The notes under the pieces are model-generated. The model was not told the origin of the DNA. It was given only the letters and a program-made list of their open reading frames with translations, and ran no database searches. A stretch of DNA of 35,621 bases, taken from positions 51,349-86,969 of the forward strand of contig CACSIN010000027.1 in the NCBI GenBank assembly GCA_902705835.1, in the 5' to 3' direction. Both the position numbers and the translations under genes were made by a program. Positions 1 through 13,145 of the stretch are shown in pieces. The DNA comes from BD1-7 clade bacterium. GTDB lineage: Bacteria > Pseudomonadota > Gammaproteobacteria > Pseudomonadales > DT-91. How positions within the stretch are numbered: the stretch's first letter is position 1; the number at the start of each line of letters is the position of its first letter.

Positions 1-592
1 CGTAATCTGGGTCGGTAATGTTATCTTCGACATGAGTAAACAAAGACTGCCGTGAAGGGAAGCTTGACGGTGTTTCAAGATCGAGCATGCGTGGCAAGAC
101 TCTACCAAAGCCACTGGCATCAAGAACATACTTGGCTTGATATTGCAGTGTCTCTCCGGCTTGGTTTTTCGCGGTGACGATTGGGGATGGACCGTCCATA
201 TCGACTGCAGTGATTTCTTCCTGATAGCGTATCTCTACGCCGGCGGCGGAGGCATTATCCGCAAGAATTTGGTCAAAACGGGCGCGTTGAACCTGAAATG
301 TTGTACCGGGCCCTTCAGATGATTTTTTACGGAAATCAAACGTCGACTTATTTCCGTTTTCAAGAAATACGGCACCGTCTTTGTACTGGAACCCTTCGTT
401 AACAACATCGTCAAGCATTCCCGCTTGTTCGAGGTATACCATTGCCTGTGGTAGCAGGCTCTCGCCGATTGAAAATCTCGGAAACTGTGCACGTTCCAGC
501 ACAATGGTGCTGATCCCCTTTGCGTGCAGGAGTTTCGAGGCAAGTGCGCCGGATGGGCCGGCACCAATTATGACTACATCTGTCTTGCGCAT
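1..592 (-). CDS. FAD-dependent oxidoreductase, flavin-halogenase-like (partial, N-terminal 197 residues)
   Basis: The reading frame stays open to the window edge, so only the first 197 residues are visible. Residues 5-18 form a Rossmann dinucleotide-binding fold with GAGPSG at 10-15. GESLLP follows at 43-48, a mid-domain QVQRARFD at 100-107, and the second FAD motif DASGFG at 158-163. This is the fold of flavin-dependent halogenases and geranylgeranyl-reductase-like monooxygenases. Lys71, in the context GFQYKDGAVF, sits where the catalytic lysine of flavin halogenases is expected. The diagnostic WxWxIP motif would lie outside the window. The ATG at 592 is 3 nt after the exporter stop, so the gene is translationally coupled to the APE operon. 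It may hydroxylate or halogenate the aryl head group, which is inference. A reductase without halogenase activity is an equally possible reading. Confidence 0.85.
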   Translation of the reverse strand, partial: MRKTDVVIIGAGPSGALASKLLHAKGISTIVLERAQFPRFSIGESLLPQAMVYLEQAGMLDDVVNEGFQYKDGAVFLENGNKSTFDFRKKSSEGPGTTFQVQRARFDQILADNASAAGVEIRYQEEITAVDMDGPSPIVTAKNQAGETLQYQAKYVLDASGFGRVLPRMLDLETPSSFPSRQSLFTHVEDNITDPDY

Positions 593-595
593 GAG

Positions 596-2938
596 TTACT
601 GACTTCTTGACGGAGTTAAGGGGGCGATGATAGCGGCACTGATTACGCCCAGGGTTAAAGTTATGCCAAAGGCACTGATAACAGAGGTATCGCTGACGCC
701 CAGCATGCCAAAAGCGAGCAAGGTAGTAATCAGCGACAACAACACCGCAAGCGCAGTGCTGTGTTTGTGGCCACTGCTTAAATGATAAAAGATGGCGTAA
801 TCGAGACTTATGCCAAGGATCAAAAGCAGTGCAAATACATTAAAAAGTGTGATCGGTGCATCACCATAACCGAGTGCAGCCAAGGTCAGCATGATCGCAG
901 TGACCGGAGTCATCAAAATCGCGATAGCCGATTTAATGCCGACCACCAGAGAAAGAATAACCAGTATCAAGGTTACGATGACGACAAGAAATTGTCCGGT
1001 TTGTTGTCGGTAGTGTTTCAGCAAAGCGGAGTAGTCGGCAACCTGATCAACCCAAAGGATGTGGTTTCCGTCTGCGAGACTTTTAAGTGATTCGACCCCC
1101 GACTGTCCACTAATACCTGACAGTGTCACCATGCTGGCACATTCTGGTTTACAGCCAAGCCAGTAGCCAGCGATATGCTCGGGCATTGCGGCAACAAATG
1201 TACCGACATCCAGTTTTTGCGGGGCTTCCTTGAACGCTGAAAGAATGCCTTGCTGTTCGGTTTCTGCCATCCCCAATTGTGCTAAGAACCCGGAGATTAC
1301 CGCTGTATCGAACAGTGTTTGATACAGTTTGTAGTTGCTTTTTTGTTCTTGTGTTATTGGGTAGTAGTCGGTCAAGCTATGCATTCCGGCAAGCTGTTTT
1401 TCGTGTATTTGGGTCTCAATGTGTTTGCGTAAATGGCTCTCGTTTTGGGCAACGTCATCGGGTGTTTGGCCCGTCACGAGAAAAAATCGAGAGTCTGTCT
1501 GTGCGCCTAGGAGAGATTTAATGCGGTCTTCTTGTTGTTTGAGCTCGCTCGGTACATCTTGAAAGTGGCGGATATCATCATCAACGCGATTTTGTATTGA
1601 GCCAAGGAGAATAAACACTGCCGCAGCGCCCACCAGAACGCCGGGCCGCCGAAAGAAAATCGCGGGCCAATCAACAGTTAAACGATGGGTAATGCCATTG
1701 AGTGGCATGGCGTGTTTAAAAATGCAACCGTGAAAACAGAAGGGGAATAGCAGTACAACGGTCGCCCACGCACCAAGCAAACCCGCCGCTGAAAACACAG
1801 CAATTTGCTGGAGCCCCGGGAATGGTGAAAAATACAAGCCGCTGAATGCAAACACTGAGGTTGCCATGCCTAATGTAATGCCGGGGAATATTTCAGCCAG
1901 GCGTTGCAGGGCAGAGCGATCCTGTTTCTCAAAAAATGCGCAAAAATAATGAAATGCATAATCGACTGAAATGCCGATCAAACTGCTGCCGAACACTAGC
2001 GTCAGTAAATGGATTTCGGAGAATAAAGCCATAGATGCTGTGAAACCACAACTTACCCCAAAACCGATTGACGTGAGTGTTAAGAAAAGCGGGCGTGCTG
2101 AGCGAAACGTGACAAATACCAGCAAAACAATTGTAAGAATCGAAATCGTGCCAACGGTCGATATTTCAGATTCAGCACTTTGCGCGCCAAAGGCGGTATA
2201 CAGAGGTAAACCGGCGGCCAATACCGTTTTCTTTTGTTGGCTGGCAGTGGTTTTGATATTCGAATAGACACCCAAAAGTTGGCGGTAATAGCCCATGCCT
2301 GTCGCTTTGCCTGATGCATCGGTTGTGATTAGGGCGAAATAGGTACCGGTATCTTTGTCTTTAACGATAGGGGTTTCATCGAAGAGCGATAATTGATCCG
2401 GGCTAAGGCTGGCGAGGTAGTCGCCAAAGGTATGAAGTGGATCTTGTTGCAAAGTCGCGAGCCGTTCCAAACCCAGAGGGCTGTAAATAACTTGAAGGCC
2501 CTGTTGGATATATTCTGCGGGCGAAAGTGTGAGTGCGTCTTGATCCGCAGGTGTCATCAACAAAAAGCGATACGGGGATAATTTTTGGTAAACCGAGGCT
2601 TGATCACCGAGCTTAATGGCCCGTTCGACCTCAGTGAACAGGTCGCTCGCTAACAGATCCTTTTCAATGGACTTAGCGTGTTTTACGGCATCTTCAGCAG
2701 TTACGCCCGATGCCATGAAAATAACCCGATTGTTGAGTCTTTCTTTCTGGCGCGCGACGGCAGCTTGCACCACCGGACGTTGATCCGCTGCGGGTAGTAA
2801 AGAAAAAATGTCGCTCGAAAGCTTGAGGCTCGACCACTGGGATATTGCCGCAGCGCCAATACACAGCACCAATAGGAACCATACCAGCAGTCGGGATATC
2901 GCCGAAAAGCGTGAGTCGGCGTCAGTTTTTGAACGCAT
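596..2938 (-). CDS. MMPL/RND-family exporter of the aryl polyene cluster (ApeM position)
   Basis: This 780-residue protein has the internally duplicated RND layout. There is one N-terminal helix (about 15-36), a large extracytoplasmic domain (about 45-255), a helix bundle (about 260-440), a second extracytoplasmic domain (about 445-640) and a final helix bundle (about 645-775). Both bundles contain the same signature, GISVDYAFHY around Asp326 and GISLDYAIFY around Asp713. These in-membrane aspartates are candidate proton-relay residues. Family members export lipids and polyketide-lipids from the inner membrane. Here the likely cargo is the lipid-linked polyene, handed to the LolA-like protein encoded just upstream. 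The ATG overlaps the lolA-like gene by 17 nt, and the flavoprotein gene starts 3 nt after the stop. Family assignment is firm; cargo is inferred from context. Confidence 0.92.
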   Translation of the reverse strand: MRSKTDADSRFSAISRLLVWFLLVLCIGAAAISQWSSLKLSSDIFSLLPAADQRPVVQAAVARQKERLNNRVIFMASGVTAEDAVKHAKSIEKDLLASDLFTEVERAIKLGDQASVYQKLSPYRFLLMTPADQDALTLSPAEYIQQGLQVIYSPLGLERLATLQQDPLHTFGDYLASLSPDQLSLFDETPIVKDKDTGTYFALITTDASGKATGMGYYRQLLGVYSNIKTTASQQKKTVLAAGLPLYTAFGAQSAESEISTVGTISILTIVLLVFVTFRSARPLFLTLTSIGFGVSCGFTASMALFSEIHLLTLVFGSSLIGISVDYAFHYFCAFFEKQDRSALQRLAEIFPGITLGMATSVFAFSGLYFSPFPGLQQIAVFSAAGLLGAWATVVLLFPFCFHGCIFKHAMPLNGITHRLTVDWPAIFFRRPGVLVGAAAVFILLGSIQNRVDDDIRHFQDVPSELKQQEDRIKSLLGAQTDSRFFLVTGQTPDDVAQNESHLRKHIETQIHEKQLAGMHSLTDYYPITQEQKSNYKLYQTLFDTAVISGFLAQLGMAETEQQGILSAFKEAPQKLDVGTFVAAMPEHIAGYWLGCKPECASMVTLSGISGQSGVESLKSLADGNHILWVDQVADYSALLKHYRQQTGQFLVVIVTLILVILSLVVGIKSAIAILMTPVTAIMLTLAALGYGDAPITLFNVFALLLILGISLDYAIFYHLSSGHKHSTALAVLLSLITTLLAFGMLGVSDTSVISAFGITLTLGVISAAIIAPLTPSRSQ

Positions 2939-3599
2939 ATAACAGCTCTTTTGGAGCGCTGCCGTAGTGTTTCAAATTATTGAAACGGATGTCTGTGTGA
3001 TCGCCGGTCGCTTCGTTGAGCGTCAAACTTTCTATCAGCTGATCTCCACGCAGGGTGATGTGTGTTATCGCTTTGCGCATAATCGCCGAATTTGGCGTTA
3101 ACACCAATTCCCAGCCGGCGTTATCGATATGATTGATTTTGGCCGAAAACTGTTGTTCGAGTGCATTTAAATCACCGGCTAATACATGATTGAAAATACC
3201 ACCAATATACTGCATGGATTTTGCCACACGAGCTGAGTTAGCCTGGGAGAAACGGGTTTCCTCCGGGGTGATAATCAGGCGTGAGGCAACAGGCTTGTTG
3301 ACCTGCCAAATAATGCCTTCACCTTTAACCACAATAAAGTAGCCGGATGAGTTAAGCGGCCGGGTAAGGACTTTAAGGTGTTTTTCTTGCGTAAAATCGC
3401 CTTTGATAGCCGCAGGCTGTATCAGACGACTTTCAATTGTTTGCAGCGCTTGTTCTGTGGAATCATTTGCGTGTAAAAGTGCTGATGCAGCGAGCAACGT
3501 GAGTAGCACGAGAACAGACAGTCCATTTTTCATCAGTGGTCTGTTTGTTAATCCTGCTGCAGTAGCTGCCATGTCTACCGACGGCATGTTAGAACGCAT
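2922..3599 (-). CDS. LolA-like outer membrane lipoprotein carrier protein (ApeL position)
   Basis: This protein of about 225 residues has a hydrophobic signal segment (LSVLVLLTLLAASALLHA) followed by a LolA-type domain. Recognisable parts are the GDFTQEKHL segment, a GYFIVVKGEGIIWQV strand pair and a C-terminal ITLRGDQLIESLTL region. LolA-fold proteins are periplasmic carriers of acylated cargo. In APE clusters the gene accompanies the MMPL exporter and is presumed to carry the lipidated pigment or its precursor to the outer membrane. I chose ATG 3599 because a GGAG lies 6 nt upstream and the resulting 11-nt overlap with the thioesterase matches the overlap one gene earlier. ATG 3533 would give a more canonical signal peptide but has a poor ribosome-binding site. 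The longer upstream extension to 3719 is unlikely because it lies within the thioesterase gene. Confidence 0.88.
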   Translation of the reverse strand: MRSNMPSVDMAATAAGLTNRPLMKNGLSVLVLLTLLAASALLHANDSTEQALQTIESRLIQPAAIKGDFTQEKHLKVLTRPLNSSGYFIVVKGEGIIWQVNKPVASRLIITPEETRFSQANSARVAKSMQYIGGIFNHVLAGDLNALEQQFSAKINHIDNAGWELVLTPNSAIMRKAITHITLRGDQLIESLTLNEATGDHTDIRFNNLKHYGSAPKELLYAFKN

Positions 3600-4041
3600 A
3601 AGGAACTCCGACTTTATCAAACAGGATTTTTGGGCTGGCCAAACACATTTCCTGTTTCTCCATATCGACGGCGACCTGAACCGTATGCCCTTTAGTAAGG
3701 CGCTTGCCGGTTTTGGCATCCGTTACCAAGTACTTTACTTTTAACCGATACTCGCATTCTACCAGTGTAGCTTTGACACGAATGATTTGCTGAAACTCAG
3801 AAGGTTGGGCATAACGCACATGCAAGTCGATGACCGGCCAGGCAAAGCCGGATGCCTCCATTTGTTTGTAGTTGTAATCCATCTTATCGAACAAGGCGCA
3901 ACGTGCGATTTCGAAATAGCGCACGTAGTGGCCGTGCCAAGCGATTGCAAGCAAGTCGACATCGTGAAACGGGATTTCAATATCAACTTCTGCGCTCCAC
4001 TTTTCTTGCAGCGCTTTGTCGATTGATGCCTTATTGGTCAT
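3589..4041 (-). CDS. apeK: Acyl-CoA/acyl-ACP thioesterase, 4HBT hot-dog family (ApeK type)
   Basis: The predicted 150-residue protein is a single hot-dog thioesterase domain of the YbgC/4-hydroxybenzoyl-CoA thioesterase type. The N-terminal signature FHDVD (25-29) followed by WHGHYVRYFE (35-44) matches the D-x-D...YHANYLKFFE pattern of YbgC, with Asp27 and Asp29 as catalytic candidates. APE clusters carry one such thioesterase, thought to hydrolyse stalled or misprimed acyl-ACPs or to release the polyene chain. ATG 4041 has a GGAG about 6 nt upstream and overlaps the ammonia-lyase gene by 11 nt. An ATG at 4116 would extend far into the lyase gene and adds sequence unlike the family. Its stop overlaps the lolA-like start by 11 nt, so translation of lyase, thioesterase and carrier is probably coupled. 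Confidence 0.9.
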   Translation of the reverse strand: MTNKASIDKALQEKWSAEVDIEIPFHDVDLLAIAWHGHYVRYFEIARCALFDKMDYNYKQMEASGFAWPVIDLHVRYAQPSEFQQIIRVKATLVECEYRLKVKYLVTDAKTGKRLTKGHTVQVAVDMEKQEMCLASPKILFDKVGVPYAF

Positions 4042-5575
4042 ACAGGCTCCAGTGCTGGTGCTGAATTTTGGCAACAGTATCACGCAAGTCGTGTTCCAGT
4101 GCTCGGTCTTGTTCAAGAAACTCGAAGTACTCAGAGACTTGGTTCATGGTCGCCACAACGGCGCTAGAAAGCTCTGCACCGTCGATGTCATTTTGACGAA
4201 TACGAAGGTGAACGCCCTGAGTTGCTGCCAGTAACATGGCCGCAGCCACTTGCTCGGTCAGCTGCAAGACGCGCATGCAATCGCGTGCCGCGATGGTTCC
4301 CATGCTGACTTTGTCTTGGTTGTGGCATTCGGTGCTGCGAGAAAACACACTGGCTGGCATGGTGTGCTTGAGTGCTTCTGCGGTCCAAGCGGATGCACCA
4401 ATTTGCACCGCTTTAAATCCGTGATTGATGGCCAGAGTATCGCCTTCAGCTCCTGATAAATTAGCGGGTAAACCGTGATTGAACTTAGGGTCCACCAATT
4501 GTGCTAGCTGGCGATCTAGCAGATCAGCAAGGTTAGCAACCGTGTTTTTCATGCTGTCCATGGCAAAAGCAATGTGACCGCCATAAAAGTGGCCACCATG
4601 AAGCACTTGCTCGGATTCGCCATCGATAATCGGGTTGTCGTTGGCGCTATTGAGTTCGTTTTCAATCAGCTGGCGGAACATCGGTAGTGTGTCTTGCAAC
4701 ACGCCGATAACGTGGGGCGCACAGCGTAGAGAATATCGGTCTTGCAGTCGTGATGAGTGGCGAGGTGCGTCACCAACGTTCAAATCGTCATGAATCCAGG
4801 CCGCGATCTGGTTTTGCCCAGGGTGCGGTTTGACGGCAAATAGTCGAGCATCAAAATGATAGGCGTTACCGTCTGTTGCAATGGAGGCCAGTGACGTGAT
4901 CCGAGCTGAGAGCTTGGCTAAGTATTGCGATCGGGTAAAGGCCAAGCACGCCAGTGCAGTCATCACCGCGGTGCCATTCATAATGGCGAGACCTTCTTTT
5001 GGGCGTAACGTCAGTGGCTCGATATCGAGTTTGCTGAATACCGTTGCGGTTGGTTGACGTTGCCCCTGATACATCACTTCCCGTTCACCACAGAGTACCG
5101 CAGCAATATAAGACAGCGGCGTCAGATCACCACTGGCGCCAACAGAGCCTTCTTGAGGGATAATTGGCAGGATATCTTCCTGAATTAACGTCACCAATTG
5201 TTGCAGCAGCTCTATACGTACCCCTGAGACACCCTGAGCCAGGCTGTTCAGTCGCACGGCGAGAATGGCGCGTGTCTCGGCTTCGCTGAAAATATCGCCC
5301 AAACCACATCCGTGGAATGTGTACAGGTGCTTGGGTAGTTGTTCAACCAACTCGGCAGGCACAGATCGTGTGCACGAATCGCCATAGCCGGTAGTGACGC
5401 CATAAATCCGCCCTTCTTCTTCGAGTAGGGTGTCGAGAAAAGCACAGCCTTTATCGATTTTGTTGATGAATTCAGGGCTATCGCCGAGAACAACATCAAT
5501 ATCCTGTTGCGATATAGCTTGGATATGCTCAATCGAGAGAGGGGTGCCGTCAAAAGTCAAAGTGGATCGTGTCAT
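4031..5575 (-). CDS. Aromatic amino acid ammonia-lyase (HAL/PAL/TAL, MIO family)
   Basis: This 514-residue protein is a full-length member of the histidine/phenylalanine/tyrosine ammonia-lyase family. Ala147-Ser148-Gly149 (GSVGASGDLTPLS) is the triad that cyclises into the MIO electrophile. Tyr58 in IYGVTTGYG is the conserved catalytic tyrosine. NDNPII and QDRYSLRCAPHVIG are also present. The substrate-selectivity pair, aligned by eye to His89-Leu90 of Rhodobacter TAL, is Phe87-His88. That is unlike the Ser-His of histidine lyases and resembles a phenylalanine-preferring pocket. There is no hut gene nearby; the gene lies within the APE operon between an acyltransferase (6-nt gap) and the thioesterase. 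The inferred role is making cinnamate or coumarate from Phe or Tyr as the polyene starter acid. Family is certain, substrate is not. Confidence 0.95.
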   Translation of the reverse strand: MTRSTLTFDGTPLSIEHIQAISQQDIDVVLGDSPEFINKIDKGCAFLDTLLEEEGRIYGVTTGYGDSCTRSVPAELVEQLPKHLYTFHGCGLGDIFSEAETRAILAVRLNSLAQGVSGVRIELLQQLVTLIQEDILPIIPQEGSVGASGDLTPLSYIAAVLCGEREVMYQGQRQPTATVFSKLDIEPLTLRPKEGLAIMNGTAVMTALACLAFTRSQYLAKLSARITSLASIATDGNAYHFDARLFAVKPHPGQNQIAAWIHDDLNVGDAPRHSSRLQDRYSLRCAPHVIGVLQDTLPMFRQLIENELNSANDNPIIDGESEQVLHGGHFYGGHIAFAMDSMKNTVANLADLLDRQLAQLVDPKFNHGLPANLSGAEGDTLAINHGFKAVQIGASAWTAEALKHTMPASVFSRSTECHNQDKVSMGTIAARDCMRVLQLTEQVAAAMLLAATQGVHLRIRQNDIDGAELSSAVVATMNQVSEYFEFLEQDRALEHDLRDTVAKIQHQHWSLYDQ

Positions 5576-5581
5576 GCTGAA

Positions 5582-6577
5582 TCAATCAATCTTCGGGGAT
5601 GTTTTTTCTGCAGAGGTTGCCTGCGGAGTATCCCAGTAATAGTAAAAGTTAAACCATTGCTTCGGTGCTTTGAGGCAATGGTGTTCGAGTCTTGTAGCAA
5701 ATGTTTGCACATAGCCCCGCAGTGCTTCACTGCGTGTTTTGCGCGGCATGGTAATGCGATCTGCGAAGTGTTCAAAATAAAGATGGTAAGCACCGGATTC
5801 CTTGACACAGAACAGGGTGTAAACCGGGCATTTCAACAATGCAGCGAGAATAAACGGCCCTTGTGCGAATTGTGCGGGCTTGCCTAAAAATTCAGCCATC
5901 GAAGTACGGCCATTGTTGTTGACGGGGACGCGATCGCCAACGATATAAATAAACTCACCAGCGGCGATTCGCTGTTCAAGCAAGATCGCGATATCCGGCC
6001 CCATATCGGTCACTTGAATGAGTTCAGTCGTATGATTGGGGTTGGCTTCAGACAAAATGCGATTAAAGTTCTGAGCGTGTTTGGTATGTACCAAGATCGT
6101 CAGCTTGGTATTGTGATTAAGTGTCACCAATGCTCTGCATATTTCGACATTACCAAGATGAGAGCCAAGTAGGATAGCGCCATGATTTTTCTTGGCAGCT
6201 TGGTAAAACTCTTCTCTGCCCTGAATGACCACGTCTTCAAATTTAATCTTGTTATTCCAGGCAGATACTTTGTCGACCATGCTTTGCGCAAACTGGATAA
6301 AATGCTGGTAGCTCTGCCAATAGGTTACAGAGGCCGGGTTTTTGCCGGTAAATCGAGCCACTTGGTGCAAATAATCCATGGATGCGCCACGTGCGAGTTT
6401 GTTCATGAAAAAGTAATAACTAACGACCGGGTAGAGTATTAGTAAGAAAATAAACTTACCGAATACGCTATGCACCATTAACATGAATTTCATGCACCAG
6501 TAGACACCGGCTTCTTCTATATTGGCCCAGTGTTTTTTCTCTTGTGTATTCGCTTTTTCGTTCTGCGGTGCTGCCAT
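5582..6577 (-). CDS. LpxL/HtrB-like lysophospholipid acyltransferase
   Basis: This 331-residue protein has a membrane-anchoring hydrophobic stretch at about 32-58. The acyltransferase catalytic signature HLGNVE (His140, Glu145) sits in LGSHLGNVE, followed later by a GDRVPV segment. These are hallmarks of the lipid A biosynthesis lauroyl/myristoyl acyltransferase family, which uses acyl-ACP donors at the inner membrane. In APE clusters such an enzyme is believed to attach the aryl polyene or a fatty acid to the lipid carrier. It starts 2 nt after the glycosyltransferase stop, in a different frame. As I recall, the two activities are fused into one polypeptide (ApeJ) in the E. coli cluster, so this looks like the split form. 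The lipid substrate cannot be read from sequence. Confidence 0.9.
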   Translation of the reverse strand: MAAPQNEKANTQEKKHWANIEEAGVYWCMKFMLMVHSVFGKFIFLLILYPVVSYYFFMNKLARGASMDYLHQVARFTGKNPASVTYWQSYQHFIQFAQSMVDKVSAWNNKIKFEDVVIQGREEFYQAAKKNHGAILLGSHLGNVEICRALVTLNHNTKLTILVHTKHAQNFNRILSEANPNHTTELIQVTDMGPDIAILLEQRIAAGEFIYIVGDRVPVNNNGRTSMAEFLGKPAQFAQGPFILAALLKCPVYTLFCVKESGAYHLYFEHFADRITMPRKTRSEALRGYVQTFATRLEHHCLKAPKQWFNFYYYWDTPQATSAEKTSPKID

Positions 6578-6579
6578 TG

Positions 6580-7347
6580 TCAGTGGTTTCCTTCCGCTGA
6601 TAGTTTTCTGCGCGTATTTTGCACCAGTATTTTGGGCAAGCGAACTAACATGCCAAAAAACAAACGTGTGTGCATTGCGGTGATCAAAAGGTTGTCTTGA
6701 AGCAGATTAAAATGAGAGACACCGTCAATGGGGTACTGCACTTTTGTGGGTAGATTGACGATAGGGACGTTTTCCCAGTGTAATTTTACCAATACTTCAA
6801 CGTCGAAATTCATACGCTCGCCGGTGTAAATTCGTTCAAGCATACGGTTAGTTGCTATTAGCGGGTAAACCCGATAGCCACACATGGAATCTTTTATATC
6901 CAGTGACAGGGTGTTGATCCATACCCAAACGTGGGTGAGGTAGCGCGCGATCAGACGATGTCTCGGCACAGTTTCGTCATAATCAGGAATGCCACAAATC
7001 AGGGCATCCGGGCGTTGCCGACAAGCATCAATAAAACGAGGTATATCTGCAGTGTCGTGCTGACCGTCTGCATCGACCTGAAGTGCGTGTGTAAACCCTC
7101 TCTTCTCAGCGATTGTTAGCCCAGTTTTAACTGCGCCGCCTTTACCACGATTCTGTGGGTGCACTTCCAAAATGACATCCGCATGTTCATCAGCCAATGT
7201 TCTGAGTACCTTGGCGCAACCAGGTTCACTACCATCGTCAACCAGAATAACGGTCAAATCGCGTTCGAGTATGCGATTGACGGTAATACCAATGGCATGT
7301 TCATGGTTATAAACAGGGATAACGACGCAAATAGTGGGCTCAGTCAT
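6580..7347 (-). CDS. Family 2 glycosyltransferase
   Basis: This 255-residue GT-A fold protein begins with VVIPVYNHEHAIG (about 8-20). It has the nucleotide-binding VDDGSE (35-40 region), a KGGAVKTG segment and the metal-binding VDADGQHD around residue 93. This is the dolichol-phosphate-mannose-synthase-like subgroup of GT2. It probably transfers a sugar to a lipid or polyene acceptor at the cytoplasmic face of the membrane. The C-terminal part is amphipathic rather than clearly membrane spanning. It follows the dehydratase by 28 nt and precedes the acyltransferase by 2 nt. The pairing suggests both act on the same glycolipid anchor of the pigment, which is inferred from neighbourhood. Sugar donor and acceptor are unknown. 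Confidence 0.92.
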   Translation of the reverse strand: MTEPTICVVIPVYNHEHAIGITVNRILERDLTVILVDDGSEPGCAKVLRTLADEHADVILEVHPQNRGKGGAVKTGLTIAEKRGFTHALQVDADGQHDTADIPRFIDACRQRPDALICGIPDYDETVPRHRLIARYLTHVWVWINTLSLDIKDSMCGYRVYPLIATNRMLERIYTGERMNFDVEVLVKLHWENVPIVNLPTKVQYPIDGVSHFNLLQDNLLITAMHTRLFFGMLVRLPKILVQNTRRKLSAEGNH

Positions 7348-7375
7348 GGTGGGTCCTGTTGGGCAATCCAGTCGT

Positions 7376-7747
7376 TCAGGTATCTGTCTGATTTACTAAA
7401 ATGCGACCTGAGCAATGCTCTCCCTGGTCGGACGAAATCACGTAGTAAACGCGTTCGTTTCGGTATTCAACGTCGAGCGTAATCGTAATGCCGGGCTGAA
7501 CAACGTTTTTGAATTTGACGACTTCCATTTGCATGGGCTCAAATGCTTCCAATGGCAACTCGAAGTGTGATTGAGCCAGTTGCATGACCCAGTCAATCAT
7601 TGCAAACCCGGGTAAAATGGGCTGGCCGGGGAAATGACCGGGAAAGTAAAGCAGGTCGTCAGTAATGGCAATATCAGCACGTACCTTGTTATCCTGCTTT
7701 TCACATTGCAGAGGAGTAGGCATTGGCTGAGTGGATGAATTTGGCAT
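7376..7747 (-). CDS. apeI: 3-hydroxyacyl-ACP dehydratase, FabA/FabZ-like hot-dog (ApeI type)
   Basis: The 123-residue protein carries the FabZ-type signature FPGHFPGQPILPG (35-47), with His38 as the catalytic histidine. Where housekeeping FabZ has a catalytic glutamate, this protein has Asp52 (FAMIDWVMQLAQ), a feature I associate with ApeI-like dehydratases. In APE biosynthesis it would remove water from 3-hydroxyacyl-ACP intermediates to create each conjugated double bond. A second dehydratase (ApeP type) is expected beyond the window. It lies 17 nt after the ligase gene. Its short length fits a single hot-dog domain that works as a dimer. Confidence 0.9.
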   Translation of the reverse strand: MPNSSTQPMPTPLQCEKQDNKVRADIAITDDLLYFPGHFPGQPILPGFAMIDWVMQLAQSHFELPLEAFEPMQMEVVKFKNVVQPGITITLDVEYRNERVYYVISSDQGEHCSGRILVNQTDT

Positions 7748-7764
7748 AGTGTAAATTAGGGCTT

Positions 7765-9207
7765 TTATTGGATACGCGGTTGCGTGTCAGTTTCAACAAA
7801 TAGTGTTTCGAACTCGGTAGTATCTATCTTGCCTTGGCTATTTACCGGCAAAGTATCAACAAACCGCCACTTTCTTGGCAGTAAACTGAGTTCAAAATAT
7901 TGCTGCAAAAAGTCCTTAATCCCTTTGACTATTTCGCGCTTGGGTAGTGTGGTTATCAACGCCTTGCCCTGATCATTCAGTACAACCACTGCACATAGCA
8001 GATCTCGGCTTGCGGAGTTTATCACGCGACAGCTGTTTTCTTTCACCCACAATTGGTTGTTCATTGTCGATTCGAGCTCAACCAATGATAATCGCTTTTC
8101 TTCCAGTTTAACGATGCGGTCGGTGCGTCCGAGTAACTCGAAGCTGCCGTCGGGCAAAAACTTGACTGCATCATCCATGAGATAACGTGATTCTTGTAGG
8201 TGTTCTGATGCCAACACGAGGCGCTTATCTTCTGCGGCACTGACGATAACATCATCGAATGCTTGCCAATATTGCAGTTGGCTAAATTGACGTCGAATAG
8301 CGACACCCCCGGTTTCAGAGCTGCCAAAGATCTCCAATGCGCTAGCCCCGGCATTATCGTTGAGTAACGATGCAGCCTCTGTGGAAAACGGCCCTCCAGA
8401 AGACGTAATATCAACTAAATGCTGGCGTGCTTGCTGCCACGGGAGTTGGTCAGGCAGTCGCTTTAAATGGGCTGGGCTGGCTATCCATAAAACGGGTTTG
8501 CTCTGGTCAATGGCGTATTTCAGAATTTGGCCAGCATCAAGATATTGTTGGCTATGGAAAACGTTGCCTTGATAGAGGGGCATGAGTACTCGAAAAATCA
8601 TGCCATAGATATGTTGATGGCTGACGGTGCCAAGAATTTCCACCGATGCTGGCCATGCAACGCCATTTTTCTTGAGCGTTGTTGAGAACGCTGAAATTTC
8701 TTGTTCAAACTGCCAAAGCTGTTTTTCGATGGCCTTGGGTTCTCCACTGGAACCAGAGGTGAATACGATGATTCGGGCTTGTGAAGATGGAGCTGGCGAG
8801 CAACTCGTCTGCTCTTGTGTTTTATAGGACGTGCTTTGAACATCGGCGGCGTTCAATGGGAGGTAATGTTCTGTATCAATAGCGGATGCTGAGGTGTCCC
8901 AATGGCCTAAAAACGCCTGGCAATGATCACCTAATCGATTTGCAGTTTCTGGCGTGTTATTACCGGGTAGATACACGTCTTTGCTCGCGTCGATTAAGGC
9001 AAACAGGCCAATCGAAAAGCTTAACGCATCATCGGTAAATAGCGCCCACTGCTGCTCGTTTCGCATTGTTAGTGCGCTAGAGAGTGCTTTAACCTGCGTG
9101 CACCAGTGCCCGAAACTTATTGAGGCTGCACTTTTATCAGGAGTAGCTTGATGTGCACAAACCTGTTTCGGGTCACGTGACTGGAATATGGCCTTGAAGT
9201 TATTCAC
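7765..9207 (-). CDS. apeH: Aryl/acyl-ACP synthetase, AMP-forming (ApeH type)
   Basis: This ANL-superfamily adenylating enzyme has about 480 residues. The P-loop-like TSGSSGEPK is at 150-158, IFGSSETGG is the adenylate-binding motif, LLGRTDRIVKLEEKRLS is the hinge region, and PVNSQGKID is the C-terminal catalytic-lysine motif. ApeH enzymes activate the aromatic starter acid and load it on the cluster's own ACP. Here the acid is presumably the product of the ammonia-lyase. The start is uncertain. A frame open to 9318 includes an ATG at 9297, but these would overlap the upstream membrane-protein gene by about 100 nt and lack a ribosome-binding site. GTG 9207 overlaps that gene by only 8 nt and gives a family-typical length, so I prefer it. 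Confidence 0.88.
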   Translation of the reverse strand: MNNFKAIFQSRDPKQVCAHQATPDKSAASISFGHWCTQVKALSSALTMRNEQQWALFTDDALSFSIGLFALIDASKDVYLPGNNTPETANRLGDHCQAFLGHWDTSASAIDTEHYLPLNAADVQSTSYKTQEQTSCSPAPSSQARIIVFTSGSSGEPKAIEKQLWQFEQEISAFSTTLKKNGVAWPASVEILGTVSHQHIYGMIFRVLMPLYQGNVFHSQQYLDAGQILKYAIDQSKPVLWIASPAHLKRLPDQLPWQQARQHLVDITSSGGPFSTEAASLLNDNAGASALEIFGSSETGGVAIRRQFSQLQYWQAFDDVIVSAAEDKRLVLASEHLQESRYLMDDAVKFLPDGSFELLGRTDRIVKLEEKRLSLVELESTMNNQLWVKENSCRVINSASRDLLCAVVVLNDQGKALITTLPKREIVKGIKDFLQQYFELSLLPRKWRFVDTLPVNSQGKIDTTEFETLFVETDTQPRIQ

Positions 9208-9877
9208 GGTTTGCGGTCTTTGTTTTGTCTGTTTTTTTGAGGTCGGTCTTTTTGATATCGGAACTGGGCCGGTGGATATTGTGAGCACGTTTAACATACA
9301 TACGTACGATAAACTCAATGGCGAACAACAACCCCATCGCGATATAGCTGATCAAACCGTTATACAAGCTCCAGACTTCGATCGTACTGTACAGCGAGGT
9401 ATACAGCGCGATGCTTCCATTGATGATAAAAAACAGGCACCAGATGACGGTAACATTGCGGGTGTAAGGAATGGCTTCCGCGGGAAGATCCGGCTCAGTG
9501 AGCCGTGCCAGACGCTCGATCATGCTCGGCGGTTTCGCGAGGGTCGCGGCGAAAATGGTCAGCATGACACTATTAATGACTACCGGATAAAAAAGTAAGC
9601 TGATCTTCGAGTTCAAAGCCGCCACAATGGCGATAAAAACTGTACCGACAATCAACGGTAGCTGCAGTGGTTGAATCCGATTTTTGTGTTCAGATGTTGT
9701 CTTGGCTATTTTCGGCGCAGTTTTGCTCGCGATGCCGAGAATAATTCGCAGTCCAAAAAGAACAAGAAGAATCAGTGCAATTCCGCGAGGCTCCATCGTT
9801 TGGAGGCCCAAATAAATAGCAACGGGATACAACAGCGTAAGCACGACGAGTATCCCGTTAAAAACGGCTTTCAGCAT
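9200..9877 (-). CDS. APE-cluster integral membrane protein (COG4648-like, ApeG position)
   Basis: The 225-residue protein contains about six hydrophobic helices, beginning with VFNGILVVLTLLYPVAIYL and GIALILLVLFGLRIILGI. It ends in a lysine/threonine-rich hydrophilic tail. The sequence and its place between the ACP genes and the adenylating ligase match the predicted membrane protein carried by nearly all APE clusters. Its biochemical role is not known to me; a scaffold for the PKS enzymes at the inner membrane or a lipid-handling function are possibilities. It starts 12 nt after the second ACP gene, and its end overlaps the preferred ligase start by 8 nt. Confidence 0.82.
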   Translation of the reverse strand: MLKAVFNGILVVLTLLYPVAIYLGLQTMEPRGIALILLVLFGLRIILGIASKTAPKIAKTTSEHKNRIQPLQLPLIVGTVFIAIVAALNSKISLLFYPVVINSVMLTIFAATLAKPPSMIERLARLTEPDLPAEAIPYTRNVTVIWCLFFIINGSIALYTSLYSTIEVWSLYNGLISYIAMGLLFAIEFIVRMYVKRAHNIHRPSSDIKKTDLKKTDKTKTANRE

Positions 9878-9889
9878 GAAGTTAGGCCG

Positions 9890-10165
9890 TTATTGGGCGA
9901 GATCCTGAACATCGCCATCTTCTGCCATTAGCGCATCAACAGCGTCCAATACATCTTGAATGGTGCGAACAGATTTAAAATCTTCGGGTTTGATTTTTTT
10001 GCCGGTCAACTCGCGTAGTTGTACGACGAGATCAACAGCATCAATGCTATCGATATCAAGATCTTCGTAAAGGCTGGCTTCAGGTGTAATATCGTCGGCT
10101 TCAATTTCGAAGGTATCTACCAAAATAGCTTTAAGTTGGTCGAAATACGGGCTGGTATTGCTCAT
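9890..10165 (-). CDS. apeF: Acyl carrier protein (ApeF type)
   Basis: This 91-residue acidic helical protein carries the phosphopantetheine attachment site DSIDAVDL with Ser40. Clusters of this type encode two ACPs that shuttle the growing aryl polyene chain; which one takes the starter and which the extender units cannot be read here. ATG 10165 lies just after the stop of the first ACP. A GTG at 10171 would form a GTGA overlap with that stop and add only two residues. The C-terminal extension EDGDVQDLAQ is unusually acidic. A phosphopantetheinyl transferase must act on it but is not encoded in this window. Confidence 0.93.
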   Translation of the reverse strand: MSNTSPYFDQLKAILVDTFEIEADDITPEASLYEDLDIDSIDAVDLVVQLRELTGKKIKPEDFKSVRTIQDVLDAVDALMAEDGDVQDLAQ

Positions 10166-10167
10166 GA

Positions 10168-10419
10168 TCACTGCTGGCTTTGAATGAATTTGGCGAGGTT
10201 GGCGACAGAGGCAAAGTGGTTCTTTGTTTCTTCGTTTTCAGCGTCGATTTTCACATCATATTTTTTGGAAATCGCAAGGCCGAGTTCCAATGCATCGATA
10301 GAATCTAAACCGAGGCCGTCGCCAAAGAGCGGGGCGTCTGTTTCGATTTCATTGACTGTAATATCTTCAAGATCAAGACATTCAATGATCATTGCTTTAA
10401 GTTCAGTTTCCAGACTCAC
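10168..10419 (-). CDS. apeE: Acyl carrier protein (ApeE type)
   Basis: An 83-residue acyl carrier protein with DSIDALEL around Ser40, preceded by a strongly acidic first helix loop. It forms the tandem ACP pair with the next gene. GTG is the start codon: the GAGGT ribosome-binding site lies 6 nt upstream, and the GTG overlaps the TGA of the upstream acyltransferase gene (GTGA), a classic coupling arrangement. It carries intermediates for the type II PKS enzymes of the cluster. The low identity to its partner suggests the two ACPs have different jobs. Confidence 0.93.
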   Translation of the reverse strand: MSLETELKAMIIECLDLEDITVNEIETDAPLFGDGLGLDSIDALELGLAISKKYDVKIDAENEETKNHFASVANLAKFIQSQQ

Positions 10420-11177
10420 TGTGGTACCTCAGGAAAAAAATAATGGCTAAACGTTTTTGTCAGCTCTCTGGCTGCTTTTGGTGTTGAACCTTCACCCGGA
10501 ATACCCAGCGGTTCGCCAGCGTCAAACGTCCAATGCGGGCGATTATAAGGTATCTGATACCATTTTTCGCCCTTTCTTAGTGTTGGCGGATCGCATTTTA
10601 TAGTAATTGGGGTCGGTTCAATGTTTGCGGCAAGCGCAATATTGGCTGCGCCGCGCTGAAGCTTCGGCTTTTTACAGCCTGGTGGAGTTCGCGTTCCTTC
10701 CGGAAAAATTATCAACGAGTCGCTTGCAGCGAGTGTTGATGCGCAGTCGTCAATTAGCTGTGTGGCATCCCGATTCGGGATATAACCCGCATTGGCCAAG
10801 GGGCCACGGGTGAACGGGTTGATAAACAAGCCGCTGCGAACGATGCAATTTGCGTTCGGGACAAAGCTGATCAAAAAAACAACATCAATAAGGCTTGGGT
10901 GGTTGGCAATAATAAGTTGTCCAGGACGCTGCAATGTTGTTTTTACACGTTCAGCGTCATAGGTCAGAACTCCCAGCCAGCGCATTTGCCCGATAAAAAG
11001 GCGCATTGCCCAGTGAATGACCTTGCGTGCGCGTTTATGTCGAGTCTGCGGTGAGCCGGGTGCCAGAGACAATATCGGGAAGATAAAAAAGCGCAGAATA
11101 AGACCGCCAAGCCCAAAATTGAAAAAACTCAATCCTGTTGCAAATAGCCGCCAGTAATAAAAATCATCCTTGGTCAC
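10416..11177 (-). CDS. 1-acyl-sn-glycerol-3-phosphate acyltransferase-like (PlsC family, ApeD position)
   Basis: This 253-residue protein has an N-terminal hydrophobic anchor (about 15-40). The PlsC catalytic motif NHPSLID contains His93 and Asp98, and the acceptor-binding FPEGTRTPPG lies further on. Family enzymes acylate lysophosphatidate or related lysolipids at the inner membrane using acyl-ACP or acyl-CoA. Housekeeping PlsC is usually encoded elsewhere. As the second gene of the APE operon, this copy likely helps build the lipid that anchors the pigment. The start is a GTG, 3 nt after the chain-length-factor-like gene, with only a weak ribosome-binding site, consistent with translational coupling. 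Confidence 0.9.
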   Translation of the reverse strand: MTKDDFYYWRLFATGLSFFNFGLGGLILRFFIFPILSLAPGSPQTRHKRARKVIHWAMRLFIGQMRWLGVLTYDAERVKTTLQRPGQLIIANHPSLIDVVFLISFVPNANCIVRSGLFINPFTRGPLANAGYIPNRDATQLIDDCASTLAASDSLIIFPEGTRTPPGCKKPKLQRGAANIALAANIEPTPITIKCDPPTLRKGEKWYQIPYNRPHWTFDAGEPLGIPGEGSTPKAARELTKTFSHYFFPEVPQ

Positions 11178-11180
11178 AGA

Positions 11181-11900
11181 TCAGTTACTCAACTTCCATG
11201 GTCCGAGACTGCATTCACTCGTCAATCCCGAAAAAAATCGGATCATATTCATCAACGGTATTTCAGTTTCAGACTCGTGCATTGAATTTCCATCATAGGA
11301 CAGCGTCAATGCCATGTCGTCATGGTTATTCAGTGAAATTTTGACCGCAAGTGCTACCGGATAGGGCGATGTGCGGATGTACTGTTGATAGAATTCAGGT
11401 ACTGCTTCTTCGTAGAATACGAGCAGAACTTGATCAGTACCTTCGAGCAGCTGCCCGATAGCATCTGCAAAGCCACCAAGGTAGCTTTCTTTACCTGGTG
11501 CTACGGCAATAGTGGGTGATTTTAACCCTTGTAGAATACTAAACTGGCCTGAAATAGCGTTGTGAACGGACAAGCTGAATGCCATTGGTGATAGATCTTC
11601 ACGCGCGACGATATCCGAAAGTATGTCGTAGGTACGTTGCGATTCACCGTACATCGAGCTGAATATTGTCGATGGTTGTTCGCCGGGTTCGAGGCATTTA
11701 TCGGCAGCGTAAAAAGCCGCGCGAGCAAGCACGGATAAGCGACGTCTCTTCATCGCGGGAATAAAAGCGACATTGGCTTTGTGATCGTCGGCAATGACGA
11801 AATTTTCTGGGTCTGTGAAGTAACATTGCCAGTCTTCTTGAGTCTCGATGCCTGGAGCCCAAGCAAAAAAACGATCAACCTTGAAATTCAGTGCAGCCAT
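11181..11900 (-). CDS. apeC: Ketosynthase-like chain-length factor, half-length (ApeC type)
   Basis: About 239 residues matching only the N-terminal half of a beta-ketoacyl synthase (Ketoacyl-synt_2 type). FSLSVHNAISGQFSI aligns with the structural SxHN...G segment of KAS enzymes. The nucleophile-elbow cysteine is absent: that position reads SPTIAVAPGKES. In the APE system described from Xenorhabdus, ApeC is a truncated, Cys-less partner of the active ketosynthase ApeO and acts as chain-length factor. The same is inferred here, with ApeO expected beyond coordinate 1. It is the first gene of the operon, 30 nt downstream of the likely transcription start. A TTG at 11918 would add six residues; ATG 11900 is preferred although its ribosome-binding site is weak. 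Confidence 0.85.
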   Translation of the reverse strand: MAALNFKVDRFFAWAPGIETQEDWQCYFTDPENFVIADDHKANVAFIPAMKRRRLSVLARAAFYAADKCLEPGEQPSTIFSSMYGESQRTYDILSDIVAREDLSPMAFSLSVHNAISGQFSILQGLKSPTIAVAPGKESYLGGFADAIGQLLEGTDQVLLVFYEEAVPEFYQQYIRTSPYPVALAVKISLNNHDDMALTLSYDGNSMHESETEIPLMNMIRFFSGLTSECSLGPWKLSN

Positions 11901-11935
11901 GAACGGGTTTACTTTCAACCTTGAAATTTGCGGGC

Positions 11936-12134: not shown

Positions 12135-13145
12135 ATGACTAAAACACGTTACCTTACTGGCATTACAACAACTGGGACTCCGCACCTCGGCAACTATGTT
12201 GGGGCTATTCGCCCAGCGATCGAAGCAAGTCGCAACGAGAATTTTGAGTCGTTCTATTTTTTGGCCGATTATCACGCGATCATCAAATGCTTTGAGCCGG
12301 AGCAAATTCGTCGCTCTACCCGCGAGATTGCTGCGACTTGGCTAGCGTTGGGTTTGGATACCAGTAATAGTGTGTTTTACCGCCAATCTGACGTTCCCGA
12401 GATACCGGAGCTGTCGTGGATTCTGACATGCATGGCTTCAAAAGGGCTCATGAATCGGGCGCATGCTTATAAAGCTGCTGTTCAGGAGAATACCGATGCT
12501 GGTACTGAGGATCAGGATAAAGGCATCACGATGGGCTTGTTTAGCTATCCCATTTTAATGACTGCCGATATTCTGATGTTCAATGGTCAGAAAATACCCG
12601 TGGGCAAAGATCAGATCCAGCATGTTGAAATGGCGCGCGATATCGCGCAACGTTTTAACCATCATTTTGGTGAAACCTTTGCATTGCCTGAAGCCGTTGT
12701 TGGTGAAGCAGCGGTGTTGAAAGGTCTTGATGGTCGCAAGATGTCGAAGTCATACGGGAATACCATCCCATTGTTTGATACACCGAAGAAATTGCAGAAG
12801 TCGATTAATAAGATCAAGACTAATTTGCTCGAGCCCGGTGATCCGAAAGACGTTGCGGATTCAACCTTGTTCGAGGTTTGGCAGGCGTTTGCCAATGAAG
12901 AACAAGTTCAATATATGCGTGATCAGTATGCCGAAGGGATCGCATGGGGACAGGCCAAAAAAGAACTATTTGCTTTGATCGATGCAGAAATCGGTGAGGC
13001 CCGTGAGCGCTACTTCTACTTTATGGATAACATGGATGAAGTTGAAGAGATTCTGCAAGCCGGAGCAGTGAAAGCGCGCGCTCACAGTCAAGATATGTTG
13101 GCGCGTGTGCGAGATGCTATTGGTATCCAACCAGTCAATCGTTAA
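12135..13145 (+). CDS. trpS: Tryptophanyl-tRNA synthetase
   Basis: This 336-residue class I aminoacyl-tRNA synthetase charges tRNA-Trp in the cytoplasm. The HIGH-equivalent motif TPHLGN lies at 15-20 and KMSKS at 202-206. A tryptophan-pocket region DYHAIIKC follows the first motif, and [16 protein letters not shown] is characteristic of bacterial TrpRS. The length matches the standard compact bacterial enzyme. It is transcribed alone, from a promoter divergent to the aryl polyene operon, and ends in an intrinsic terminator about 30 nt downstream. There is no visible trp leader peptide. Confidence 0.98.

Follow-up and report, generated by a model that had tools for sequence, protein, structure and literature searches.

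Aryl polyenes (APEs) are common bacterial membrane pigments. We analysed a stretch of 35,621 nucleotides from a BD1-7 clade bacterium, referred to here in its entirety as the window (contig CACSIN010000027.1, G000:C27:51349-86969; source genome G000, 5.06 Mb in 30 contigs), the left part of which carries APE genes together with a gene for an aromatic amino acid ammonia-lyase of the 4-methylideneimidazole-5-one (MIO) type. According to our best explanation, to which we give a probability of about 0.65 as a whole and with its chemistry included, the genes belong to a complete operon of the Vibrio fischeri APE type (APEVf), in a marine gammaproteobacterium. The lyase and the halogenase-like flavoprotein encoded after the exporter gene (FAD1) belong to the usual inventory of such clusters and are already known and common. 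The unusual part, a second halogenase-like flavoprotein (FAD2), lies outside the window and looks like a lineage-specific addition to the operon.

Organization of the APE operon

Fourteen open reading frames (ORFs) run on the minus strand from position 11918 down to the left edge of the window. Their order, ApeC-D-E-F-G-H-I-J-lyase-K-L-M-FAD, is that given by the initial annotation, which had been made from the sequence alone, and all of the genes are present, with two corrections: ApeJ is here divided into two separate genes, a glycosyltransferase and an acyltransferase, and the operon continues to the left. A Pfam scan assigns 13 of the 14 ORFs, the exception being the protein at the ApeG position. 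The operon starts beside a divergent ORF at 12135 (window coordinate). Its first gene, ApeC (11181..11918; PF13723, E = 4.9e-53), encodes a ketosynthase (KS)-like chain-length-factor partner and is followed by ApeD, a lysophospholipid-type acyltransferase (10416..11177; PF01553), by the two acyl carrier proteins (ACPs) ApeE (10168..10419) and ApeF (9890..10171), both assigned to PF00550, and by ApeG (9200..9877), named by its position, which matches its positional counterparts in loci L034 and L035 at 40% and 38%, respectively. ApeH (7765..9318; PF00501) is an AMP-forming ligase predicted to load the aromatic starter, with a weak NCBIfam match to 4-coumarate ligase (74.9 bits; cut-off 334.7). 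Then come ApeI, a hotdog dehydratase (7376..7747; over the cut-off of the ApeI-like family PF22818), and the two parts of ApeJ, a family 2 glycosyltransferase (GT2; 6580..7347; PF00535) and an LpxL-type acyltransferase (5582..6577; PF03279). The ammonia-lyase, a predicted tyrosine/phenylalanine lyase (4031..5575; PF00221, E = 3.2e-161), indeed lies where it was first annotated, between the ApeJ acyltransferase and ApeK, a 4HBT thioesterase (3589..4116; PF13279). ApeL, a LolA-like carrier (2922..3719; PF03548), and ApeM, an MMPL-type exporter (596..2938; PF03176), come next. Overlaps between the listed ORFs of ApeH, ApeK and ApeL and their neighbours leave the start codons of these three genes uncertain; the true starts of ApeK and ApeL are probably downstream. 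The flavoprotein described after the exporter is likewise present: FAD1 follows ApeM (1..592 in the window; PF04820 and PF01494) and is cut by the window edge, with positions 2-592 carrying the first 197 of its 409 residues, the whole gene being at G000:C27:50711-51940 (L002:17712-18941).

To the left of the window, on the same strand, the rest of FAD1 is followed by ApeN (DUF3261), ApeO (KS), an ApeP-like dehydratase (over the cut-off of PF22817), ApeQ (ketoreductase; KR) and ApeR, a second KS (677.8 bits against a cut-off of 470 for NCBIfam NF006587). FAD2, of 561 amino acids, stands at the operon end (L002:11676-13361 = G000:C27:44675-46360). The whole operon comprises 20 genes over about 18.6 kb (C27:44675-63266) and brings together KS, chain-length factor, KR, two dehydratases, two ACPs, ligase, thioesterase, acyltransferases and exporter. 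The initial annotation had expected KSs, a KR and a second dehydratase left of coordinate 1 and would have given up its APE assignment in the absence of KS and KR genes; all of them were found there, and the assignment stands. The methyltransferase that it had also thought of was not recovered: neither ApeA nor ApeB was seen in the operon, nor was any methyltransferase of the ApeB kind, and the left-flank genes scanned gave only a histidine-specific one (PF10017). At L002:1654-3926, Pfam places a sulfatase-modifying-factor-like protein next to a histidine-specific methyltransferase, a pair that resembles ergothioneine genes.

Distribution of the lyase and FAD1

We compared the operon with 293 genomes of the same order, drawn evenly and some of them incomplete (the order sample). 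A lyase counted as APE-type from 56% identity upwards; everything else that matched was at 26-38%, save for the second fragments of two broken genes. The thresholds were E 1e-60 for FAD1 and E 1e-110 for ApeR, at which distant copies are missed. Any lyase match was found in 107 of the 293 genomes and an APE-type lyase in 43. Four of these 43 are fragments (G120, G092, G292 and G045), and for two (G069 and G088) the search reports a single stop within the match, yet their ORFs list as open. ApeR is present in 55 genomes, 40 of which hold the lyase, and 36 of the 43 APE-type lyases are on the same contig as ApeR and within 25 kb of it. The seven others include G027, where the APE cluster is cut by the contig end, G120, where the fragment is next to ApeJ, G224, with a short APE-like cluster devoid of exporter genes, and G088 and G130, with non-APE neighbours, in addition to G108 and G292. 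In nearly all of the lyase clusters fetched, the lyase is placed between ApeJ and ApeK (L070 is the exception). The source-genome lyase is 98% identical to the copy in the sister genome G142.

An in-cluster ammonia-lyase is not exotic in APE clusters, being the usual state in this order, and FAD1 is just as routine. It was found in 48 genomes, 36 of them with ApeR within 25 kb, and lies within 25 kb of 32 of the 43 lyases; two lyase clusters (G225 and G028) gave no FAD1 match at E 1e-60. We accordingly rejected FAD1 as a novel element. The same gene order, with both the lyase and FAD1, occurs in the records of Pseudoalteromonas sp. THAF3 and Acinetobacter baumannii VB31459. Passages of the literature concur: one paper takes as its definition of APE clusters the presence of homologues of the characteristic genes, 'including ammonia lyase' (PMC8719888), a second names an ammonia lyase among the genes shared with the V. 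fischeri APE cluster (PMC5851621) and a third lists a 'histidine ammonia-lyase' in flavobacterial APE clusters (PMC5932025). The claim that the lyase and the in-window flavoprotein set this cluster apart is thus not supported, for the flavoprotein as for the lyase.

Two variants of the cluster were seen in the same sample. In the lyase-bearing APE clusters of G173 and G045 (L063:3372-5687 and L177:5691-8019), an O-methyltransferase and a sulfotransferase occupy the place of FAD1, which suggests differently tailored head groups. The short APE-like cluster of L070 (G224:C4; 6699-13350) consists of ApeC, ACP, ligase, ApeI, lyase, ApeO, ApeP and ApeQ; homologues of LolA, the MMPL exporter and ApeJ were looked for in it and not found, and any arylpolyene that it makes may not be exported in the usual way.

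Identity and predicted selectivity of the ammonia-lyase

With 537.6 bits for PF00221 (cut-off 27.3) and an intact MIO motif, GASGDL, the lyase is a member of the MIO-dependent aromatic amino acid lyase superfamily, and it is the sole PF00221 match reported in the source genome. Its other motifs are FHGCG and HNQDKVSM. It scores 392.1 bits with the HutH model (cut-off 539.15), 322 bits with the phenylalanine ammonia-lyase model (cut-off 519) and 338.2 bits with the FlxA model NF053541 (cut-off 700); it is therefore not a FlxA member, and may act alike.

The selectivity residues were read in an alignment of 15 APE-type lyases (that of G130 from elsewhere, the 14 others from an APE or APE-like cluster) with six HutH-type copies of related genomes; one of the six, on checking, scored above the hutH cut-off (693.7 bits), and a seventh non-APE copy has no MIO triad. 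The MIO triad and HNQD are present in all 15 APE-type lyases. All 15 have HNQDKVSM, against ANQEDHVSM in the six HutH-type copies, and 14 have FHGCG (YHGCG in the other), against SHAAG in the six. The glutamine of HNQD stands where the HutH-type copies hold the glutamate of NQED. A change from glutamate to glutamine at this position is typical of tyrosine and phenylalanine lyases. These residues favour a tyrosine/phenylalanine lyase over a histidine lyase. We rejected the enzyme as a HutH of histidine breakdown, given its score under the hutH cut-off, its different selectivity residues and its membership of the operon. The biochemically characterized FlxA combines a histidine-ammonia-lyase-like first motif with a second motif of the tyrosine/phenylalanine ammonia-lyase kind and prefers tyrosine about 1000-fold, according to the sections consulted of PMC3992019. 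The likely role of the APE lyase would be to supply an arylacrylate, most likely 4-coumarate, providing the ring and the first double bond of the polyene.

The best sequence match of the lyase in the PDB is a tyrosine aminomutase, and such an enzyme would supply a β-amino aromatic starter. The score of 330.8 bits falls well short of the cut-off of the tyrosine aminomutase model (501), and amino head groups are not known to us from any APE pigment; we regard this alternative as very improbable.

Some relatives of the lyase are found in other settings. That of L064 (G088:C136; APE-type, 68%) adjoins genes for an AMP ligase, a KS III-like protein and a thiamine pyrophosphate enzyme, which do not form an APE cluster. 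That of L174:9442-10971 (G130:C22; 61% identical) has unrelated neighbours, the FAD1 match of G130 being on another contig. These two neighbourhoods led us to reject a restriction of the lyase family to APE clusters. Several FAD2-bearing genomes (G293, G296, G662, G666, G671, G674 and others) hold relatives that are not of the APE type; their open frames span at least about 640 residues, and the match breaks near query residue 270.

Source of the aromatic starter

In xanthomonadin-type clusters the starter enzyme is the chorismatase XanB2. We found XanB2-type chorismatase (PF21168) in seven of the 293 genomes, in four of them within 25 kb of ApeR. None of these four holds the lyase, compared with 40 of the 55 ApeR genomes (hypergeometric probability 0.004, for four genomes and ignoring kinship). 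PF21168 has no match in the source genome, whereas four of four control genomes with a xanthomonadin-type FAD2 are positive; by this search, the XanB2-type starter enzyme that marks a xanthomonadin cluster is missing from the source genome. The genome G250 does combine the two, with a lyase cluster and, some 3.5 Mb away, a match to PF21168 (44.6 bits). A lyase dedicated to starter supply would not be expected to coexist with XanB2, and, judged by their distribution, the two seem to be alternative starter modules. Within the order sample, the arrangement closest to the xanthomonadin type is that of L058 (G047:C26), an APE-like cluster with FAD2, XanB2-type chorismatase and ApeR and no lyase.

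There is a precedent for starter supply by a tyrosine ammonia-lyase (TAL) and a ligase, tested biochemically for flexirubin in the portion seen of PMC3992019. Weaker support comes from one Pseudoalteromonas, which makes trans-cinnamic acid traced by the authors to TAL homologues, with no APE link in the passages available (PMC3853003). Several points nevertheless weigh against a lyase-derived starter. The lyase is under the cut-off of every NCBIfam model matched, eight in all, and its family also adjoins the non-APE genes of G088 and G130 described above. The source genome encodes a UbiC-type chorismate lyase, so that 4-hydroxybenzoate is available as a possible starter. A 4-hydroxybenzoyl starter has been modelled for the A. 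baumannii APE enzymes, in the part seen of PMC8358021, although one A. baumannii cluster has the lyase. Finally, 11 of the 55 ApeR genomes hold neither the lyase nor an in-cluster XanB2, which means that a dedicated starter enzyme is not obligatory. These last three points would fit 4-hydroxybenzoate from UbiC as the starter, as in the APEs of Escherichia coli and Xenorhabdus, where ApeH of the latter loads 4-hydroxybenzoate (in the excerpt seen of PMC8253772); the lyase would then be a minor starter source, a source of signal or an idle relic. We nonetheless consider this alternative unlikely: the MIO triad is intact in every aligned lyase, the gene is kept between ApeJ and ApeK in nearly all clusters, L070 apart, and it was not found together with an in-cluster XanB2. 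The proposal of the initial annotation that the cluster makes its own arylacrylate starter is therefore upheld in part: the residues and the flexirubin precedent agree with it, while UbiC leaves 4-hydroxybenzoate as an option.

FAD2 and the possible modification of the ring

FAD2 lies 58 bases after ApeR. It has a match in seven of the 293 order-sample genomes (G000, G142, G116, G047, G011, G015 and G188) and is inside an APE operon only in the first three, which belong to one genus (BD1-7 clade) and are three of its five genomes in the sample. In G047 it is near ApeR in the different, XanB2-bearing cluster, and in G011, G015 and G188 it is away from ApeR. A sample of 369 genomes of the class gave eight FAD2 matches, G000 included. 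The lyase and FAD2 in one cluster were seen only in the three genomes of the BD1-7 clade genus: none of 28 other FAD2-bearing genomes has an APE-type lyase, the best match being 42% over part of the sequence (seven genomes of the class sample, three of the order sample and those of 18 of the 80 named loci below; in G011 and G015, which are among the 28, FAD2 is away from ApeR). G188, outside the 28, has a lyase cluster and a 34% relative of FAD2, about 2 Mb apart and not in one cluster. Among the best 80 of at least 277 named FAD2 loci, taken with flanks of at most 10 kb a side (28 of the 80 are under 21 kb), 36 hold at least three Ape homologues, those of Lysobacter, Luteimonas and Hydrogenophaga among them, and 58 hold a KS homologue; the lyase occurs within 10 kb only in L074 (CACSIO010000012.1), from the sister species BD1-7 clade bacterium SB11_3 (Spongiibacteraceae in the NCBI taxonomy).

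Flavin-dependent halogenases are marked by a WxWxIP motif and a catalytic-type lysine. In the FAD2 family, Lys99, Trp261, Trp263 and Ile265 are present in 94 of 94 distinct sequences, several of them paralogues from one locus, and Pro266 in 93. The predicted structure of the L074 copy (mean predicted local distance difference test score, pLDDT, of 89.9) has mostly halogenases as top matches: a PltM mutant (Z = 32.7), a Bmp2 mutant (32.2) and PltA (31.6). FAD2 thus combines the halogenase fold, the WxWxIP motif and the catalytic-type lysine and is probably a flavin-dependent halogenase, a putative assignment made from sequence and model. Halogenase genes are reported in two Xanthomonas clusters, the pigments of which carry 0-2 bromine atoms, in the passages seen of PMC3691225.

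Two observations speak against halogenation. The predicted fold of FAD2 is also near 3nix (Z = 32.2) and p-hydroxybenzoate hydroxylases (PHBH; Z of about 28). In addition, arcuflavin clusters include a gene called halogenase while the pigment is non-brominated, according to the part consulted of PMC3949708, and halogenase activity of FAD2 is for this reason not to be assumed. FAD1 has the same double resemblance, to PHBH-type hydroxylases as well as halogenases; its best PDB match is 3nix (E = 3.5e-107), an uncharacterised flavoprotein of Cytophaga hutchinsonii. Alternatively, the lyase could be mainly a phenylalanine lyase, in keeping with the phenylalanine at its first selectivity position, with FAD1 or FAD2 hydroxylating the ring and no halogenation taking place. 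Such a scheme sits poorly with the conservation of WxWxIP and the lysine, not only in FAD2 but also in FAD1 (20 of 20 distinct copies among 26 aligned rows, the lysine two before a glycine), and with the lyase clusters of G225 and G028, in which FAD1 was not matched; we find it quite improbable.

Proposed pathway and significance

The reading that we prefer, to which the probability given at the outset applies, starts with the lyase, which would deaminate tyrosine (less likely phenylalanine) to an arylacrylate for activation by ApeH onto an ACP. ApeO-ApeC and ApeR would extend the chain with malonyl units, with ApeQ reducing and ApeI and ApeP dehydrating. Release of the polyene acid and its attachment to a lipid would fall to ApeK, ApeD and ApeJ, and transport to the outer membrane to ApeL, ApeM and ApeN. 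FAD1 would act as a routine APE flavoenzyme, and FAD2, as a relative of the flavoproteins of xanthomonadin-type clusters, would probably halogenate the phenol ring. The gene content, order, motifs and distribution are observed, and all of the chemical steps are inferred; the predicted product is a tyrosine-derived, possibly ring-halogenated aryl polyene.

More tentatively, and with less confidence than even odds would warrant, one may picture a hybrid pigment in which a tyrosine start by the in-cluster lyase (the logic of APEVf and flexirubin) is combined with ring halogenation by FAD2, plausibly bromination in seawater, the lyase replacing XanB2; starter modules would then be interchangeable on one conserved polyene machine. 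No report of a lyase and a xanthomonadin-type halogenase in one cluster was met in the article listings and passages of the literature searched, which covered few subscription papers. One lineage thus combines a lyase-bearing APE cluster with a xanthomonadin-type flavoenzyme, which predicts a pigment not found recorded in that literature. The new part is modest: this lineage-specific operon, and the distribution pattern of the lyase and XanB2. The results also point to a testable rule: each APE cluster would draw its aromatic starter mainly from a single source, be it lyase, XanB2 or UbiC.

Comparison with known systems

The core gene set is shared with the E. coli cluster (APEEc), which differs in its 4-hydroxybenzoate starter and its methyltransferase ApeB; in the portion compared of its gene table, from which K to M fall outside, there is neither lyase nor flavoprotein (in the part seen of PMC8253772). 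The Bacteroidetes flexirubin clusters, in which the TAL FlxA and the ligase FlxY start the polyene (in the sections seen of PMC3992019), resemble the scheme proposed here in this respect, and the solved structure nearest to FAD1 (3nix) is that of a C. hutchinsonii protein. They differ in that our lyase is below the FlxA cut-off and that no DarB over the cut-off is present in the source genome. With two weak DarB matches (29.8 and 21.8 bits; cut-off 550), a resorcinol ester of the flexirubin/arcuflavin type was rejected.

With the xanthomonadin-type clusters of Lysobacter, Luteimonas, Hydrogenophaga, Variovorax and relatives, the operon shares FAD2, which belongs to their flavoprotein family, whereas it has the lyase instead of a PF21168 chorismatase. 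The closest likeness is to APEVf-type clusters (V. fischeri ES114, MIBiG BGC0000837 according to passages of PMC8719888, which like those of PMC5851621 name the ammonia lyase), with the same core genes, the lyase between ApeJ and ApeK and FAD1 after ApeM, an order that we read in the A. baumannii and Pseudoalteromonas records rather than in V. fischeri itself. Compared with the APEVf-type records L034 and L035, which are without FAD2, the BD1-7 clade operon adds this second flavoprotein after ApeR.

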